A stretch of 32,216 nt of DNA from Candidatus Melainabacteria bacterium (GTDB lineage Bacteria > Cyanobacteriota > Vampirovibrionia > LMEP-6097): contig JABHOV010000056.1 of assembly GCA_018695135.1 (NCBI GenBank), positions 1-32,216 on the forward strand, in the 5' to 3' direction. The position numbers and the translations under genes are program-made. Shown piece after piece: positions 11,937 through 21,220 of this stretch. Each line of letters starts with the position of its first letter. The first letter of the stretch is position 1. Below the pieces are notes generated by a model. It saw nothing but the letters and a program-made list of their open reading frames with translations, made no database searches and was not told where the DNA came from.

Positions 11937-12947
11937 TTATACTAAAGCTGTTGCTTTTTCAAAATCTTCTTGAGTAGGAAGCTTGAATTCACCTGAATCA
12001 TTGAAACCAGCATTTCTTTCTCTGTCATATTTATCAAACTGCTCTCTAGCCACGATATCAGCTACTTTGGCATATCTCAAAGTAGTTCTAATATCACTAT
12101 GACCAGCTAATTTCTGAAGAACTCTAATATCGATATGACCAACTCTTTCAGTACAGAAAGTATGTCTAAGCTGGTGAATAGTCAGTGGTGTGCTGTCAGG
12201 ATTCTTAATTCCTTTCGAAGCTTGTTTAAATAATTGATTAGCTCTGTGATAACCAAGACGAGTACCGTTGTTTGTTGTAAACAAAGCACCTTCATTTCTC
12301 AAAGCCTGAGCTTCTTCAATTGTTGTCGCTTGGAATAAAACTGAACGATCCGGAACTCTCTTTTCTAAGTACTTTCTAAAAAGTTTTTCTGTATGCTGAG
12401 ACATGTAAGTTACTCTTGCTCTGTTACCTTTACCAGCACGAACTTGAATAACACCATTGCGAATGTCCTGAACATTGAGTGCAAGCGCTTCAGAAATTCT
12501 CAAACCACTTGAATAAAGTAAGTCAAATAAGAACTCCTCTCTGATTGACTTTGATTCAGCCATTATCTGTCCAACAATTTCTCTATCTAAATATCTAATG
12601 ATGTCTTTTGAGTTAGTCTCACCAAGATCTTTGTTTGGTTTACGTCTCTCAACATTTTTGATCGGGTTTTCAATCAACTTAGATTGTTTGATTAGCCAAT
12701 TAAAAAAACAACTAATCGTTGCATAGTGCCTGTTCTGTGTTGAAACACTAACCCTCTTGCCAGTTCTTGTCGTCAACGCATCTAAGTAAACCTTAAGCTC
12801 GGGCGATTTGATTTCTAGTGGTTTGGTTTCACCATAAGTAGCAGTAAACTTCTCAAGGTCAAGCCTATAAGCCTTAATTGTATCGTTATCTTTTTCCAAC
12901 GACTCTACATATTGTTCTACTAAATCTTTTACTTGTTCTTCTTTCAC
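11937..12947 (-). CDS. Tyrosine recombinase/integrase (XerC/XerD-like)
   Basis: 336 aa: LLYSSGLRISEALALNVQDI, TIHQLRHTFCTERV, LQKLAGHSDIRTTLRYAKV (R...HxxR...H...Y catalytic residues), SAM-like N-terminal domain. GTG start with SD (agaggg). Confidence 0.93.
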   Translation of the reverse strand: MKEEQVKDLVEQYVESLEKDNDTIKAYRLDLEKFTATYGETKPLEIKSPELKVYLDALTTRTGKRVSVSTQNRHYATISCFFNWLIKQSKLIENPIKNVERRKPNKDLGETNSKDIIRYLDREIVGQIMAESKSIREEFLFDLLYSSGLRISEALALNVQDIRNGVIQVRAGKGNRARVTYMSQHTEKLFRKYLEKRVPDRSVLFQATTIEEAQALRNEGALFTTNNGTRLGYHRANQLFKQASKGIKNPDSTPLTIHQLRHTFCTERVGHIDIRVLQKLAGHSDIRTTLRYAKVADIVAREQFDKYDRERNAGFNDSGEFKLPTQEDFEKATALV

Positions 12948-14940: not shown

Positions 14941-15456
14941 TCAGCTAATTGAAACATCTTGCTTTATGGCTTGCTTCCACGTGTCCTTAAGATCTTTCAC
15001 AAGATCAACAACCTCATCTATCACCTTGGGATCTTTGCCGATGTTCGCCTTAAACAATCTCATCTTCATAAAAGTATAAAGCTCTGACATTGGGGTTGCA
15101 AAATCCTTACTCGCTTCAACATCCAAGGTATCTTGCATATAATTCAAAATATCAATAGCCATACCCATATAATTTGCATAGTCTGACCAGTTAGCTAACT
15201 TATTATTCTCATTCTTGCGAATCTCTTCTTTGGACATATGTAGCCATTGAAGACAACCTTCATATAGCAAAATCACTAATTGAATTGGACTTGAGGTCTC
15301 AACAACGTTTTTCAAGAACTTTTTCTTGATACCTGATAATTTATTGACCTTTTTACTAAGCTCCAAATTTGCCTCTCTTATTTTGATACTGTCACTGAAT
15401 GTTCTATATAGTCGGCATTTTATCAGTGAAACACAAGCACAATCAACAAAAATCAT
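14941..15456 (-). CDS. fliS: Flagellar export chaperone FliS-like protein (true start may be internal, e.g. TTG at 15366)
   Basis: NVVETSSPIQLVILLYEGCLQWLHMSKEEI...NYMGMAIDILNYMQDTLDVEAS...MSELYTFMKMRLFKANIGKDPKVIDEVVDLVKDLKDTWKQAI follows the FliS pattern (tasPxxLilmLYdga...i..L...L). An SD-like agagagg precedes the TTG at 15366. Confidence 0.8.
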   Translation of the reverse strand: MIFVDCACVSLIKCRLYRTFSDSIKIREANLELSKKVNKLSGIKKKFLKNVVETSSPIQLVILLYEGCLQWLHMSKEEIRKNENNKLANWSDYANYMGMAIDILNYMQDTLDVEASKDFATPMSELYTFMKMRLFKANIGKDPKVIDEVVDLVKDLKDTWKQAIKQDVSIS

Positions 15457-15527: not shown

Positions 15528-16649
15528 ATGGCAAAAGCACAAATTGAAAAAGACGAACCTATAATTATCAAAAAGATAATTAAGAAAGTAGCAGGACATG
15601 GACATCATGGTGGTGCCTGGAAAGTTGCTTATGCCGATTTTGTTACGGCGATGATGTGTTTATTCTTACTTTTGTGGTTAATTAATGTTGACCCAAGTGC
15701 AAAATCAGCCGTTGCTAATTTCTTTAAACAACCAACTCAAACTGGACCTATGCAAGGCAATGTTTTCATTTTCGGAGGTGCCAAAAGACCTGGTAATCCA
15801 GGGAAAATGGAAGGTGGTGCTAGCTTCCTTGAATTCCAAAAACTCGTACTCTCTGGGCAAAACAAAAAAGAAATACAAAGTAAAATGAAAAACGACCTGC
15901 AGAAACAATTAGAAATTAGCTCTGATGAAAAATTACTCAACAAAGTTGAATTTAATTTAGTGGAACAAGGTATCTTAATTGAAATCAAAGATGATGAAAA
16001 TATGGAAGTCTTTCCCTCTGGCTCAGCAGCATTGACAGGAGAAGCAAGAGCACTGATAGACAAAGTTGCTAACGTAATCAAGAACAAAATTAGCTCTATC
16101 GTTGTTGCAGGACATACAGATAGCAAAGATTTTTCTTATGGAAATTACGACAACTGGAATCTCTCAACTGATAGAGCAATTGCAATCAAAACTCGCTTGA
16201 TCTACGATGGAGTAAACCAAACTAGATTTGCCAGAGTGGAGGGTTATGCTGATAGCCAACTTAAAGATCCTGAACTTCCACTAGCTGCAGCTAATAGGAG
16301 AATTACTATTCTTTTACTGCAAGATGGTGAAGAAAAAAACTTAAAACCAAAATATCTTGATGAACAAGTTAGCTTTGGTAAAGAAGTTAAAGCAGCAAGA
16401 AAAAGAGAATCTGAGAAAAAACAAAGTGGTAACTTAAGTATCAAAGAATATGGTGCATCAGCTGGTAGGTCACACAAGCCTCTTAGTCTAGATGAATTAA
16501 AACGTCAAAAAGCACGCCAATCATTCAGAAAAAGACATCCGACTGGAACAGGTTCTGTGCCTGCAGCTGGTGGACACGGTGAAGAAGCTAGTAGCGGTCA
16601 CGAAGCTCCACCAGCACCAAGTGGTGGTGGTGATGGAGGAGGTCATTAA
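15528..16649 (+). CDS. motB: Flagellar motor protein MotB (plug/TM plus OmpA domain, with Gly/His-rich C-terminal tail)
   Basis: GHHGGAWKVAYADFVTAMMCLFLLLWLINVD (MotB TM) and OmpA-like VVAGHTDSKDF...NWNLSTDRAIAIKTRL...VEGYADSQ...NRRITILL. SD gaaggaaag. Confidence 0.93.
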   Translation: MAKAQIEKDEPIIIKKIIKKVAGHGHHGGAWKVAYADFVTAMMCLFLLLWLINVDPSAKSAVANFFKQPTQTGPMQGNVFIFGGAKRPGNPGKMEGGASFLEFQKLVLSGQNKKEIQSKMKNDLQKQLEISSDEKLLNKVEFNLVEQGILIEIKDDENMEVFPSGSAALTGEARALIDKVANVIKNKISSIVVAGHTDSKDFSYGNYDNWNLSTDRAIAIKTRLIYDGVNQTRFARVEGYADSQLKDPELPLAAANRRITILLLQDGEEKNLKPKYLDEQVSFGKEVKAARKRESEKKQSGNLSIKEYGASAGRSHKPLSLDELKRQKARQSFRKRHPTGTGSVPAAGGHGEEASSGHEAPPAPSGGGDGGGH

Positions 16650-16653
16650 CTAA

Positions 16654-18423
16654 ATGTCACTTAGCTTAACTATAATTTCAATAACTATTGTTCTTGTAGT
16701 CATCTTTGTTGCTGGCTTTCATCAGATAGTTAGCACGGTACACTTCCTGGCTAAATTCTTTCACCTCGGTCGTTTTTTTGATTTTAGTCCAGCTAATTCA
16801 TTAAGTTCAATTTTTTATCTCTACGATCATAATGACATCAAAGGCTGGAGACAATGGATCAGTAAACAAGACTTAGAAACTCAGGAAGCTGCTATCGCAT
16901 TACTCATTACTCACTTAGAAAAAAATCCCGGTACATGGGGACTAATCAGCCCTCAAGCAATCAGAGCGCTAGCTGTCTTTGCCGAAGATCGAAATGATCC
17001 ACGTGGAGCGAAACTAGTTAAGAAAATCACAACAATGATCGATACCTGTAAAAAGATCTGGGACAAATATATTATCACAGACAAAATCTATCAAGCATGC
17101 TGGGAAGCACTCATCGAAATCGATACGGAACTAGCTCAAACATTAATACTCAAAGAACTTGAAAATCATAAAGATAATTATGAGATCAATACAAGCATGG
17201 TTAAGTCTTTCGCGCTTTTTGAACAAGATCTGGATATCAGTGCAATCCTTTGCACAATACTAACTGATCCCAGAGAAGCTTTCAAAGTTAAGAAACAAGT
17301 GTTAGAAATTATGGCAGAAGAGAGAAGTGAAGAAGAAACAAACAAAACTATCACTGAGACTCTTGAAAACATAACTCAAAGTGAATATGCAAATACAAAT
17401 GATGACACAGACAAACTCTTCACTGGGCTTTTAAGTCTACTAGGAGACAATCTTGACGATAATATCATTCAACTGGTCATACAAGTCTGCCAACATAAAC
17501 ATCTTGGCAAATTTGCTATCGATTCATTAGCTAGTGTGATCACAGAACAACCTGATCTATTTGATCCAGAAACTTTATATCTACTCACAGAAATTGAACA
17601 TGCTGAAATCGCAAATGTCTTCCAAGCCATTGCCAAAAACTTTGCTCTCAACACTGCTGAAATTAGGCTCTGTCTCAACGATGATCTTCCAGTCTATATA
17701 CCATTCAAGGTAGAACTCTTGGCTCATGAAAGTATTAAAGAACTACCTATTACTGCTGCAATGAACGAACTTTATGAGCAAACCAAAACGGCATTCACAG
17801 AAGCAGAAAGACAAACGGTTCTACTCATGAGTGGGTCTGCAGAATTAGATAAACTACATTTTGCTCGAGCTATAGCCGCAGAGAATCAGTGGACGTTTCT
17901 CTACGCACAATATCAAGACTTACACAGTTCTGATATTGTGTTTAATGACTTTCACGATAAGATACAAGCGCTTAGACCAATACTCGTTTATATCAGTGAA
18001 ATAGATTCATTATTACAATCAAGCGATGTTGATTTCATGAATAAAATAAAAAAGCTAGCTAATGATTCACGTACAGAATTCATTATGACAAGCAATAAAG
18101 AAGCAGCTGAATTAGTAATTCCAGAAAAACTAAAACCATACTTTAGTACAAGCACCTGCGATATTCCACAACTTAGACAAATAGGCAAAGCATCTATCTT
18201 CAAAAACAAACTTGAAAAAATACAACAAAAAAACCAATCTGGTAATTTTAATATGGAAAATATTATTGGTTCAATAAGAGCTAATTCCCGATTGGAATAT
18301 GGTGCTGCATTAGTTAAATACTTCAAAGCTGGCTTACTTACGGAAGGAAAAGTAATTGAATTAAAACGATTCGAAGAGCTCGAAGCTATTGCTAAAAAGA
18401 CAAAGAAGGTAGACAATGCTTGA
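16654..18423 (+). CDS. Membrane-anchored protein with degenerate AAA+-like domain (paralog 1)
   Basis: N-terminal TM (LTIISITIVLVVIFVAGF), helical repeat-like middle. C-terminal segment QTVLLMSGSAELDKLHFARAIAAENQWTFLYAQ...ILVYISEIDSLLQ...TEFIMTSNK aligns by eye with AAA+ Walker A/B/sensor 1, with key residues altered. Confidence 0.7.
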   Translation: MSLSLTIISITIVLVVIFVAGFHQIVSTVHFLAKFFHLGRFFDFSPANSLSSIFYLYDHNDIKGWRQWISKQDLETQEAAIALLITHLEKNPGTWGLISPQAIRALAVFAEDRNDPRGAKLVKKITTMIDTCKKIWDKYIITDKIYQACWEALIEIDTELAQTLILKELENHKDNYEINTSMVKSFALFEQDLDISAILCTILTDPREAFKVKKQVLEIMAEERSEEETNKTITETLENITQSEYANTNDDTDKLFTGLLSLLGDNLDDNIIQLVIQVCQHKHLGKFAIDSLASVITEQPDLFDPETLYLLTEIEHAEIANVFQAIAKNFALNTAEIRLCLNDDLPVYIPFKVELLAHESIKELPITAAMNELYEQTKTAFTEAERQTVLLMSGSAELDKLHFARAIAAENQWTFLYAQYQDLHSSDIVFNDFHDKIQALRPILVYISEIDSLLQSSDVDFMNKIKKLANDSRTEFIMTSNKEAAELVIPEKLKPYFSTSTCDIPQLRQIGKASIFKNKLEKIQQKNQSGNFNMENIIGSIRANSRLEYGAALVKYFKAGLLTEGKVIELKRFEELEAIAKKTKKVDNA

Positions 18424-20293
18424 TTCTCTTCTGGACGATCAATTAAGCCTCTTTGGTCTCTTTATACTGGTTGTGGCCATATCAGCCTATGTACTCTTAG
18501 AAAACTCTGACTTATTTTCTTTTGGAACAGAAGCAAAGAGTAAGTCTAATGCAACTATGGCAACAGCCTCAAATCATGCATTAAGCAGGATGTTTTATAA
18601 ATATAATCACGAATCCGAAAAAGACTGGATGCAATGGATTAAAGAAGAAAGTCAAAGCAACAAAAATAAAGCACTAAAATTATTAAACGATCACTTTGAT
18701 GCACCAGCCAAGCATTGGGGTGCAATTACTCTTGAAGCTCTTGAAGCAATGCCTATATTTAAAGAGGAGGGTGCTGGACACATTATTGCAAAATTCTTTA
18801 TCCGCTCGGGGAAACTCTGGAATGAATACAGAAGTATACCTAATTATTATAAGAAAGCTGCTGAGGTACTTAGTATCATTAGCCCACAACTTGCACTCAA
18901 AAATTTAAGTGAGGAATTTGATCGCAGATCAAGTATCCAATCTGAATTAGAACGCAAAAAAATAATTATCGATGTACTACCGAAGCTCGGTCCCTTAGGG
19001 GCTGGTTTAATAGTCGCCATTATTACCAATAATCTAGAAGTCTTTAGTGTAAGAACACAAGCTCTTAGATCAATCAACAAGTTTGAACCAACAAGCCAAG
19101 ATAATATTATTCTTGAATCCTTAAAACAAGAACTCAAGCGCTTTGGCAATATTGACAAAGCACCTGACGGGAATGATAAGGAAATTCTGGAAGACTTGTT
19201 TAGCTATGCTGCTTTCAACATAGCAAAAAAAGAGTTTCTTGCCATATTCAAAGTAGCCTGCAATTCTAATTTGGACATTCACAAATTGGCAACAGATCCA
19301 TTAATCAAAAGAATACGTTTAGAAAAAAACGATCTTGGTATTGCTGAAATTTATGCAATGACCTTACTGACAGACAATCCACAAAACCAATTACGCAGAG
19401 CGATTGCTAGCATTCATGGGTTAGAGTCAGATGAGATTGAAAGTATTTGTATAACCAAACTGAGAGAAGATCCAATATCGGAAGAAATTCTTAGAGAAGA
19501 AAATCCACTTGAGGTCCGCTCCCGCATTCCCAGACCCTTTTATAAAGAATATGAGAGCTTTAAAAAACTGTTTGCGATTCCAACTGTCATACCACAAGTA
19601 TCATGTCAAAAAGCATATGGTGGAGTTCTATTAACTGGCAATGATGAAATCACAAAACTTTATTTTGCAAAAGCATTTGCTCGAGAATCTGGTCTCAATT
19701 TTGGCTACATCAATATTGCAAACATCAATGGTAAAGAGGATTACAATAAATTAAGCTCTATGTTTACAGATCTACGTAAGCCTTACCTGATTTACATTAC
19801 CCATCCTGAGCTTATGTACCCTTCTGACAAAAGTCAAACCGCAAGCTACAGAAGCAAATTTGCTCAAAGTCTTTATATACAAGCTCTTGATACAAAATCA
19901 TTCTTAATAGGATCAATTAACAAAAGTGCCGAAGAAATACAAAGTGAGACTACCATGATGGCAATAAGTCAATTGCGTAGTAATTTCTTCTCCCAAGTAT
20001 CAGAGATAAATCAAAAAGAAGAAAGCTTCAAATCAAAAATCATCGAAGACTGCTTCAATTCAATCAATCCTCATCGACTAGAAAATAAAATGGAGCTAGG
20101 TCACCAACTACTAGAGAAATCCAAAGGTCAACACCCTCTTAGTTTTAGCTTTGAAGCACTTAAGTTACTAAGTGTCATGCTACTTGTTTATGGGCACAGT
20201 AGCTCAGTAGCAGAAGTGGAGAAAGTAATCAAAAGATTTGCAGTTGGAGCCCCTGAGAAACAAAATCAAATAGAGCAGCCGGATGAGACTTAA
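18416..20293 (+). CDS. Membrane-anchored protein with degenerate AAA+-like domain (paralog 2)
   Basis: N-terminal TM; MFYKYNHESEKDWMQWIKEESQSNKNKALKLLNDHFDAPAKHWGAITLEALEAMPIF parallels IFYLYDHNDIKGWRQWISKQDLETQEAAIALLITHLEKNPGTWGLISPQAIRALAVF of paralog 1. GGVLLTGNDEITKLYFAKAFARESGLNFGYI...PYLIYITHPELMY is degenerate AAA-like. 8-nt overlap with paralog 1. Confidence 0.7.
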   Translation: MLDSLLDDQLSLFGLFILVVAISAYVLLENSDLFSFGTEAKSKSNATMATASNHALSRMFYKYNHESEKDWMQWIKEESQSNKNKALKLLNDHFDAPAKHWGAITLEALEAMPIFKEEGAGHIIAKFFIRSGKLWNEYRSIPNYYKKAAEVLSIISPQLALKNLSEEFDRRSSIQSELERKKIIIDVLPKLGPLGAGLIVAIITNNLEVFSVRTQALRSINKFEPTSQDNIILESLKQELKRFGNIDKAPDGNDKEILEDLFSYAAFNIAKKEFLAIFKVACNSNLDIHKLATDPLIKRIRLEKNDLGIAEIYAMTLLTDNPQNQLRRAIASIHGLESDEIESICITKLREDPISEEILREENPLEVRSRIPRPFYKEYESFKKLFAIPTVIPQVSCQKAYGGVLLTGNDEITKLYFAKAFARESGLNFGYINIANINGKEDYNKLSSMFTDLRKPYLIYITHPELMYPSDKSQTASYRSKFAQSLYIQALDTKSFLIGSINKSAEEIQSETTMMAISQLRSNFFSQVSEINQKEESFKSKIIEDCFNSINPHRLENKMELGHQLLEKSKGQHPLSFSFEALKLLSVMLLVYGHSSSVAEVEKVIKRFAVGAPEKQNQIEQPDET

Positions 20294-21220
20294 CTAAACG
20301 TAGGCACTAAATTCAGCAAGACCTGAGCTAAGAACTTCTTTCCCCAGATGATTCTTGCCCTTGAATTCAAAACTAGTGCCTTGCCATTTACCTTGATAGG
20401 TCAAACTATCCATCGGTTTAACAATATCTGAGAAACGTACTCGATAACGCTTGATAGAACCTGGCTCCTTGCCTGCCATAAATAAATTTGCTCCAAGTGC
20501 CATAGTTGCCATACCGTGAAGTATATTACCGCCCAATCCTACCTTGCGTCCAAAATCTACATCTAAATGAATAATATTGAAGTCTCCACTAGCACCGGCA
20601 TAGACTTGAGGCATATATTTATCGATAAAGACTTTGTACTGGTCGCCATTATTATAATGAGCATCTTGTACTGCTCTATCTAAAGCAATATCAGTACCGC
20701 TAAGTTCTTGAATCTCAGCTAATGCCTTCATTTGCTTAGCTTTAGCACGCGGGCATGGAGGAGCCATGCTCATTAATTTCACCATGAGTTTTTCTTTGAA
20801 ACTAAAATCCTTATCATTACCACCACGAATAACAAAAGTCCAAATACTCGTACAAACATCTTCACCAGCTTGATTAGTAGAATCTGAAACCATCACAATA
20901 AAATCATGGGGACCTTTTTGGAAGATCTTTTCTATTCTTGCTTTGGTGGTGATGGTATCTCCAACACGTACTGGCTTGTGATAAATAAACTCTTGCTCAC
21001 CATGAACCAACTTGGCTAAATTGAGCTTGAGATCTTGATCAAATAAAACAGACCATAATAATTCATGCCCGTAAACAACAGGAAAGGTTGGTGGTGCTAT
21101 CTCCTTGAATTTTTCTTGGTCAGCCTTGGTAGCAATCAAAAACTCAAGTAGTTTTTCTTTGCCTACTGTATAAACAAGGTCTGGATATTTTTTACCGATG
21201 AATTTTTCTGAGATTGCCAT
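20294..21220 (-). CDS. MaoC-like dehydratase, double hotdog (N-terminal MaoC-N plus C-terminal MaoC)
   Basis: 308 aa: FIGKKYPDLVYTVGKEKLLEF...YHKPVRVGDTITTKARIEKI...; VYAGASGDFNIIHLDVDFGRKVGLGGNILHGMATMALGANL (MaoC signature SGDFNxxHxD). Confidence 0.9.
   Translation of the reverse strand: MAISEKFIGKKYPDLVYTVGKEKLLEFLIATKADQEKFKEIAPPTFPVVYGHELLWSVLFDQDLKLNLAKLVHGEQEFIYHKPVRVGDTITTKARIEKIFQKGPHDFIVMVSDSTNQAGEDVCTSIWTFVIRGGNDKDFSFKEKLMVKLMSMAPPCPRAKAKQMKALAEIQELSGTDIALDRAVQDAHYNNGDQYKVFIDKYMPQVYAGASGDFNIIHLDVDFGRKVGLGGNILHGMATMALGANLFMAGKEPGSIKRYRVRFSDIVKPMDSLTYQGKWQGTSFEFKGKNHLGKEVLSSGLAEFSAYV

Follow-up and report, generated by a model that had tools for sequence, protein, structure and literature searches.

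FtsH and the classical AAA clade (p97/Cdc48, Msp1 and the proteasomal ATPases) have an AAA core and a lid in the same order as two paralogous proteins, here called A and B, whose genes follow the stator gene motB in a genome of the Caenarcaniphilales (Melainabacteria). FtsH carries a membrane anchor upstream of its AAA domain, as do A and B (A of the g2/g5 genomes excepted, see below). Unlike FtsH and the classical AAA proteins, A and B have lost the Ser/Thr and a Gly of the P-loop and most of Walker B, have no counterpart of the pore loop or the arginine fingers, and have a long helical region between the anchor and the AAA domain. The zinc metalloprotease domain of FtsH is absent from A and B, which end shortly past the lid, and neither was matched by a peptidase family.

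The Torsin cofactors LAP1 and LULL1 are membrane-anchored and have a degenerate AAA domain without ATP-binding motifs (PMC5425593). They resemble A and B in their anchored, degenerate AAA domain and are a precedent for a partner role, but they give an arginine finger to the active Torsin ATPase, whereas A and B have no classical finger motif in the alignment with FtsH, although a finger at another position may exist, and no gene for an active partner beside them. LAP1 and LULL1 are eukaryotic, and homology is not claimed. The plastid FtsHi proteins are described as pseudo-proteases (PMC8197885). In the plastid FtsHi/Ycf2 motor complexes, membrane-anchored FtsH relatives that have lost their activities are part of heteromeric assemblies; these complexes are not flagellar, in which they differ from A and B. 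Ycf2-FtsHi structures were among the Foldseek matches of B, a match to the AAA fold only.

FlgX is a lineage-specific stator chaperone of Campylobacter jejuni that serves MotA/MotB and guards them against FtsH (PMC6686046). Its role matches the one proposed here for A and B, and it is taken as a precedent with no claim of homology; A and B differ in being a pair, in being much larger and in having an AAA fold. PflA, PflB, FcpNO and PflD of C. jejuni are lineage-specific stator scaffolds, and several have an inner-membrane anchor (PMC11870540). As is proposed for A and B, these accessory proteins keep stator units in place within a single bacterial lineage; they are periplasmic, however, whereas A and B have the AAA fold and a predicted cytoplasmic orientation. 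No flagellar component of this architecture and no prior description of A or B were found in the literature searched, which covered few subscription journals.

Gene layout and protein architecture

The window (the whole stretch of DNA analysed, 32,216 nt) is part of a 2.05 Mb draft genome; flagella genes were reported earlier in Caenarcaniphilales (PMC4040986). motB (373 aa; 15528-16649, forward strand) encodes a stator protein with a MotB plug and an OmpA-like domain (Pfam MotB_plug, 3.9e-16; OmpA, 5.5e-14), and was matched to NCBIfam PRK09041 at 5.6e-55, under the curated cut-off. Gene A (589 aa; 16654-18423, forward strand) follows after a gap of 4 nt, and gene B (625 aa; 18416-20293, forward strand) overlaps A by 8 nt; the coordinates agree with an earlier note on this DNA, which had described two ORFs of these lengths and spacings behind motB. 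On the reverse strand, fliS (14941-15456; TIGR00208, 8.5e-22; Pfam FliS, 1.1e-26) is divergent from motB and keeps its place in relatives, and a MaoC/HadAB-like dehydratase gene (20294-21220) is convergent with B, its place and opposite strand also being kept. The dehydratase gene adjoins B throughout the order, and a flagellar link is not evident. Further upstream, a tyrosine recombinase gene of the phage integrase family (11937-12947) looks resident and not like a recent mobile element, because it is kept in two other genomes (G001, 97%; G005, 81%).

A and B were 23% identical over 552 aa (E 9e-22) and are thus paralogs. By a simple NG86 estimate against the sister species, dN/dS was 0.23 for A, 0.14 for B and 0.08 for motB. 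Given these values, A and B are translated, real genes under purifying selection, and they evolve faster than motB.

Near its N-terminus, each protein has a single strongly hydrophobic segment, whose 19-residue mean hydropathy is 2.73 in A and 2.65 in B. In A this helix is the predicted membrane anchor (residues ~3-29; 16660-16740, forward strand; residues 2-35 are helical in the model). The anchor is followed by the signature [IM]FYxYxHxxxxxWxxWI, which in A lies in IFYLYDHNDIKGWRQWI (residues 48-75; 16795-16878, forward strand) and of which the histidine and the two tryptophans (H59, W65 and W68) are invariant in 28 members. The hydrophobic segments agree with the N-terminal transmembrane segments of the earlier note, and the shared motif, given there as [I/M]FYxYxHxxxKxWxQWI, is real.

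The AlphaFold models had a mean pLDDT of 86.6 (A) and 83.3 (B). A is all-helical up to about residue 345, where the AAA domain comes next; this middle region (residues 48-345; 16795-17688, forward strand) is HEAT-like by weak profile matches only (HEAT-type proteins of the PDB at E 0.002-0.04), which are leads and no more. The H-W-W signature and helical middle region of B span 18575-19462 (forward strand), in the same layout as A. Likeness of the helical region to FliG was also considered, and no similarity was found. The N-terminus of B is acidic and basic residues follow its helix, which by the positive-inside rule suggests that the bulk of the protein faces the cytoplasm (N-terminus out, C-terminus in).

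In the g2/g5 genomes (L075, L078, L079 and L080), A has no hydrophobic segment and keeps its place behind motB. Where measured, its frame extends merely 0-12 codons upstream, and a longer, anchored form is therefore unavailable. An A protein that lacks the transmembrane segment in a kept position fits A being held by B.

The C-terminal AAA domain

The C-terminal domain, with its lid, spans residues 360-575 of A (17731-18378, forward strand); that of B spans 19502-20224 (forward strand). A profile of the AAA region was built from 28 family members and compared with known structures and with proteins of the same genome. It matched p97/Cdc48 chains at E 3e-12 (the sum over two domains; best single domain 5e-6), in an alignment that keeps P-loop, Walker B and sensor-1 in register. 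With hhalign it matched the genome's own FtsH at 92.8% (E 4e-7, 190 columns, lid included) and another AAA protein of the genome at 95.0% (E 4e-8, lid included); the latter was also reached unaided by HMM search (E 1.1e-6). Two negative controls from the window, an ABC ATPase and an AAA_14 protein, scored 0.5% and 0.7%, and a chance P-loop look-alike was rejected on the difference between these P-loop proteins and the true AAA proteins (93-95%). KAP or STAND NTPase identity was likewise rejected: two members match each, more weakly than AAA.

In the AlphaFold model of A, the strands and helices of the domain follow the AAA order, with pLDDT mostly >90. Foldseek retrieved AAA proteins at E ~1e-6 with the models of A and B; the best structural matches were p97 and PAN, and the TM-score normalised to isolated PAN AAA domains reached 0.60 (A) and 0.58 (B). 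The structural alignments with p97 are long, have a large rmsd and are not to be over-read. Pfam AAA (PF00004) stayed below its gathering cut-off of 21.2 bits (A, 15.5 bits, E 0.024; B, 16.6 bits, E 0.012), with the sub-threshold matches at the right place, and it matched 7 of the 28 AAA-domain pieces at E up to 1 (best 1.1e-5). The AAA core fold and helical lid, which the earlier note had assigned by eye, are confirmed at fold level by the p97 and FtsH profile matches, the AlphaFold and Foldseek results and the silent P-loop controls; the profile and Foldseek checks that it had proposed for the domain found AAA similarity by both routes (E 3e-12 and ~1e-6).

The similarity to FtsH raises an alternative in which A and B would act on FtsH itself, as protease-less FtsH-like partners or decoys that shield new MotA/MotB from degradation. 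The profile aligns with the genome's FtsH across the lid, a membrane anchor is common to FtsH and A/B, and protection of stators from FtsH has been reported for FlgX, albeit by other means (PMC6686046). However, the other AAA protein, and not FtsH, gives the best profile match within the genome, and p97 and PAN are the best structural matches; we regard this alternative as improbable.

Loss of catalytic residues

The P-loop reads GSAELDKL in A (residues 394-401; 17833-17856, forward strand) and GNDEITKL in B, and the Walker B regions read VYISEID and IYITHPE, respectively. Two P-loop residues, the first Gly and the Lys (G394 and K400 in A), are invariant (28/28). The residue before the Lys is Asp or Glu in 26 members and Thr in 2, and Gly in none; the residue after it is never Ser or Thr (0/28). 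The Walker B DE is intact in a single member, an A ortholog (L077, LYLDEVE), and the catalytic Glu is kept in 3/28; in A of the window the Asp is replaced by Ser and the Glu is retained. The earlier description of the catalytic motifs as broken thus extends to the P-loop of the whole family (28/28); for Walker B there is the nuance that A keeps the Glu and L077 the DE. At the pore-loop segment the hhalign alignment with FtsH has a gap, and the RPGRFDR arginine fingers of FtsH have no counterpart, as judged from this single alignment and not from an assembly structure.

ATP hydrolysis by the family appears very unlikely, because the Gly and the Ser/Thr that flank the P-loop Lys are gone in 28/28. 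Nucleotide binding is disfavoured on the same kind of sequence evidence. It would be needed if A and B were ATP/ADP sensors that bind nucleotide through the invariant Gly and Lys and so set stator engagement, a reading to which the invariance of G394 and K400 (28/28) and the intact Walker B DE of one A ortholog lend some support. We nevertheless consider it quite improbable: the Asp or Glu before the Lys in 26/28 should repel phosphates, the Mg-binding Ser/Thr is absent in 28/28, and the arginine fingers have no counterpart.

Conservation beside motB

The order was sampled in nine genomes of five genera. motB was present in all nine, and the run motB-A-B was present in 9/9, in one of them (G002) over two contigs, with motB and most of A at one contig end and the rest of A and B at another; we infer that these pieces form one run. 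In the eight unbroken runs the genes are on the same strand at spacings of -8 to +9 nt, and stop and start often overlap. Orthologs of A and of B are ~20% identical across genera. Besides motB-A-B, just fliS and the dehydratase gene are neighbours common to the g1/g3/g4 and g2/g5 groups. motA is on another contig (C8), which leaves A and B as the conserved partners of motB on its strand.

These data bear on the possibility that A and B, with no part in motility, stay beside motB by evolutionary accident, as members of a short segment (fliS-motB-A-B-dehydratase) whose order has been frozen. The place of the convergent dehydratase gene is equally conserved, and the sample is nine genomes only. 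We hold this possibility to be highly improbable, however, in view of the same strand, the near-zero spacing and the often overlapping stop and start in all unbroken runs, and of a gene order kept despite strong sequence divergence.

A maximum-likelihood tree of the family gave three groups, X (support 100/99), B (93/94) and A (83/81); its branches are long, so that the deep joins are uncertain, and the G002 piece C187:26-409 was left out. The left-out piece is a further family member of which the AAA part only is present, in a 142-aa open frame. The A and B clades are separate, with one row per genome each, and the A-B pair is therefore ancestral to the order. Because the tree sets the dispersed paralogs apart from the A and B clades, the motB-linked pair is a single coherent unit that has been vertically kept.

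A search with a model of the helical region gave no convincing relative among 373 further genomes of the class or in a sample of the phylum; a number of these genomes encode MotB-like proteins. Partial matches in G028, G057, G353 and G518 (19-28 bits, helical region only) and a short match of B in G021 were taken as chance. A scan of named genomes with A gave matches confined to the same order, and no relatives of the family were found in plasmids and viral contigs. As for the stator proteins themselves, MotA (L127:7806-8669) was closest to TIGR03818 (MotA1) and MotB to PRK05996/PRK09041, and the window MotB (15528-16649) was matched only weakly by MotB-like proteins from the class's other families. 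On these matches, the genes for MotA and MotB may be of foreign origin.

Dispersed paralogs

Further members (X proteins), one to three per genome, are present in five of the nine genomes and have the same layout and broken P-loop as A and B. On the question, raised in the earlier note, of whether homologs always sit beside motB, the A-B pair does so in 9/9 genomes, but extra paralogs are found elsewhere in these five, which by the note's own refuting criterion, homologs away from flagellar genes, counts in part against its reading. One type of X locus lies near flagellin (G000, G001, G002 and G005), one near fliG (G000 and G001) and one near a chemoreceptor gene (G005). Others lie by PNPase/HAD/dCMP deaminase and fatty acid desaturase genes, by proC/sodB and by gidB/tpiA; three independent X loci have no flagellar gene nearby. 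Flagellar genes are scattered through the genome (motA on C8, flgL on C41, flhA on C103 and C66), and for this reason the closeness of X to flagellar genes is suggestive. Genome G000 has two flhA-type export genes (L129 and L130; C103:20219-22219 and C66:17596-19584), both just below the FlhA cut-off and with a poorer match to SctV; the genome may have two export systems, flagellar or type III, or one of the genes may be a diverged copy.

The X proteins could mean that the family is a general membrane pseudo-AAA scaffold used at several sites, with co-expression as the only tie between the motB-linked pair and the motor, and no contact between the pair and the stator. The extra paralogs share the architecture and the broken P-loop, and some are found by PNPase/HAD, proC/sodB or gidB/tpiA. 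Against this, the motB-linked A and B are the sole family members in the four g2/g5 genomes, which makes the minimal set a motB-linked one, and several of the X proteins are encoded close to a flagellin, fliG or chemoreceptor gene. On balance we judge this explanation unlikely.

Proposed role at the stator

We tentatively favour, at somewhat less than even confidence, a reading of the conserved operon-like layout in which A and B serve the MotAB stator as a pseudo-AAA scaffold or chaperone that is peculiar to this lineage and does not hydrolyse ATP. A and B would be produced together with MotB as a membrane-anchored pseudo-ATPase pair specific to the Caenarcaniphilales. One helix would anchor each protein in the inner membrane, N-terminus out and C-terminus in, and would place on the cytoplasmic face a helical solenoid and an AAA domain of the FtsH/p97 type that is unable to hydrolyse ATP. 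A and B would assemble through their AAA domains, as a heteromer or ring, and may contact MotA/MotB or the rotor; by binding, and not by ATP-driven threading, the assembly would keep MotAB stator units at the motor, position them there or protect them. A more specific form, in which paired pseudo-AAA proteins, anchored in the membrane and facing the cytoplasm, build a ring or collar around MotAB stators as a novel motor part that holds them, and in which the paralogs near flagellin and fliG serve other flagellar sites, is in our view doubtful.

Gene adjacency is the sole link of A and B to their putative function at the stator, and as a counterpoint the convergent dehydratase gene, with no evident flagellar tie, adjoins B as faithfully. 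On sequence grounds the pair may be a scaffold, a chaperone or an FtsH shield.

Add-on motor parts that hold or protect stators differ by lineage, and each new one shows how the motor has been adapted. The recruitment of a degenerate AAA fold to stator holding would be unusual if true, and none is described in the literature searched. Across its 28 members the family has lost its catalytic residues, while two P-loop positions, the first Gly and the Lys, are still invariant. From their sequences and gene order, A and B look like an apparently undescribed, lineage-specific accessory part of the flagellar motor, and they give direct access to the flagellar motor of a sister line of the cyanobacteria that does not photosynthesise.
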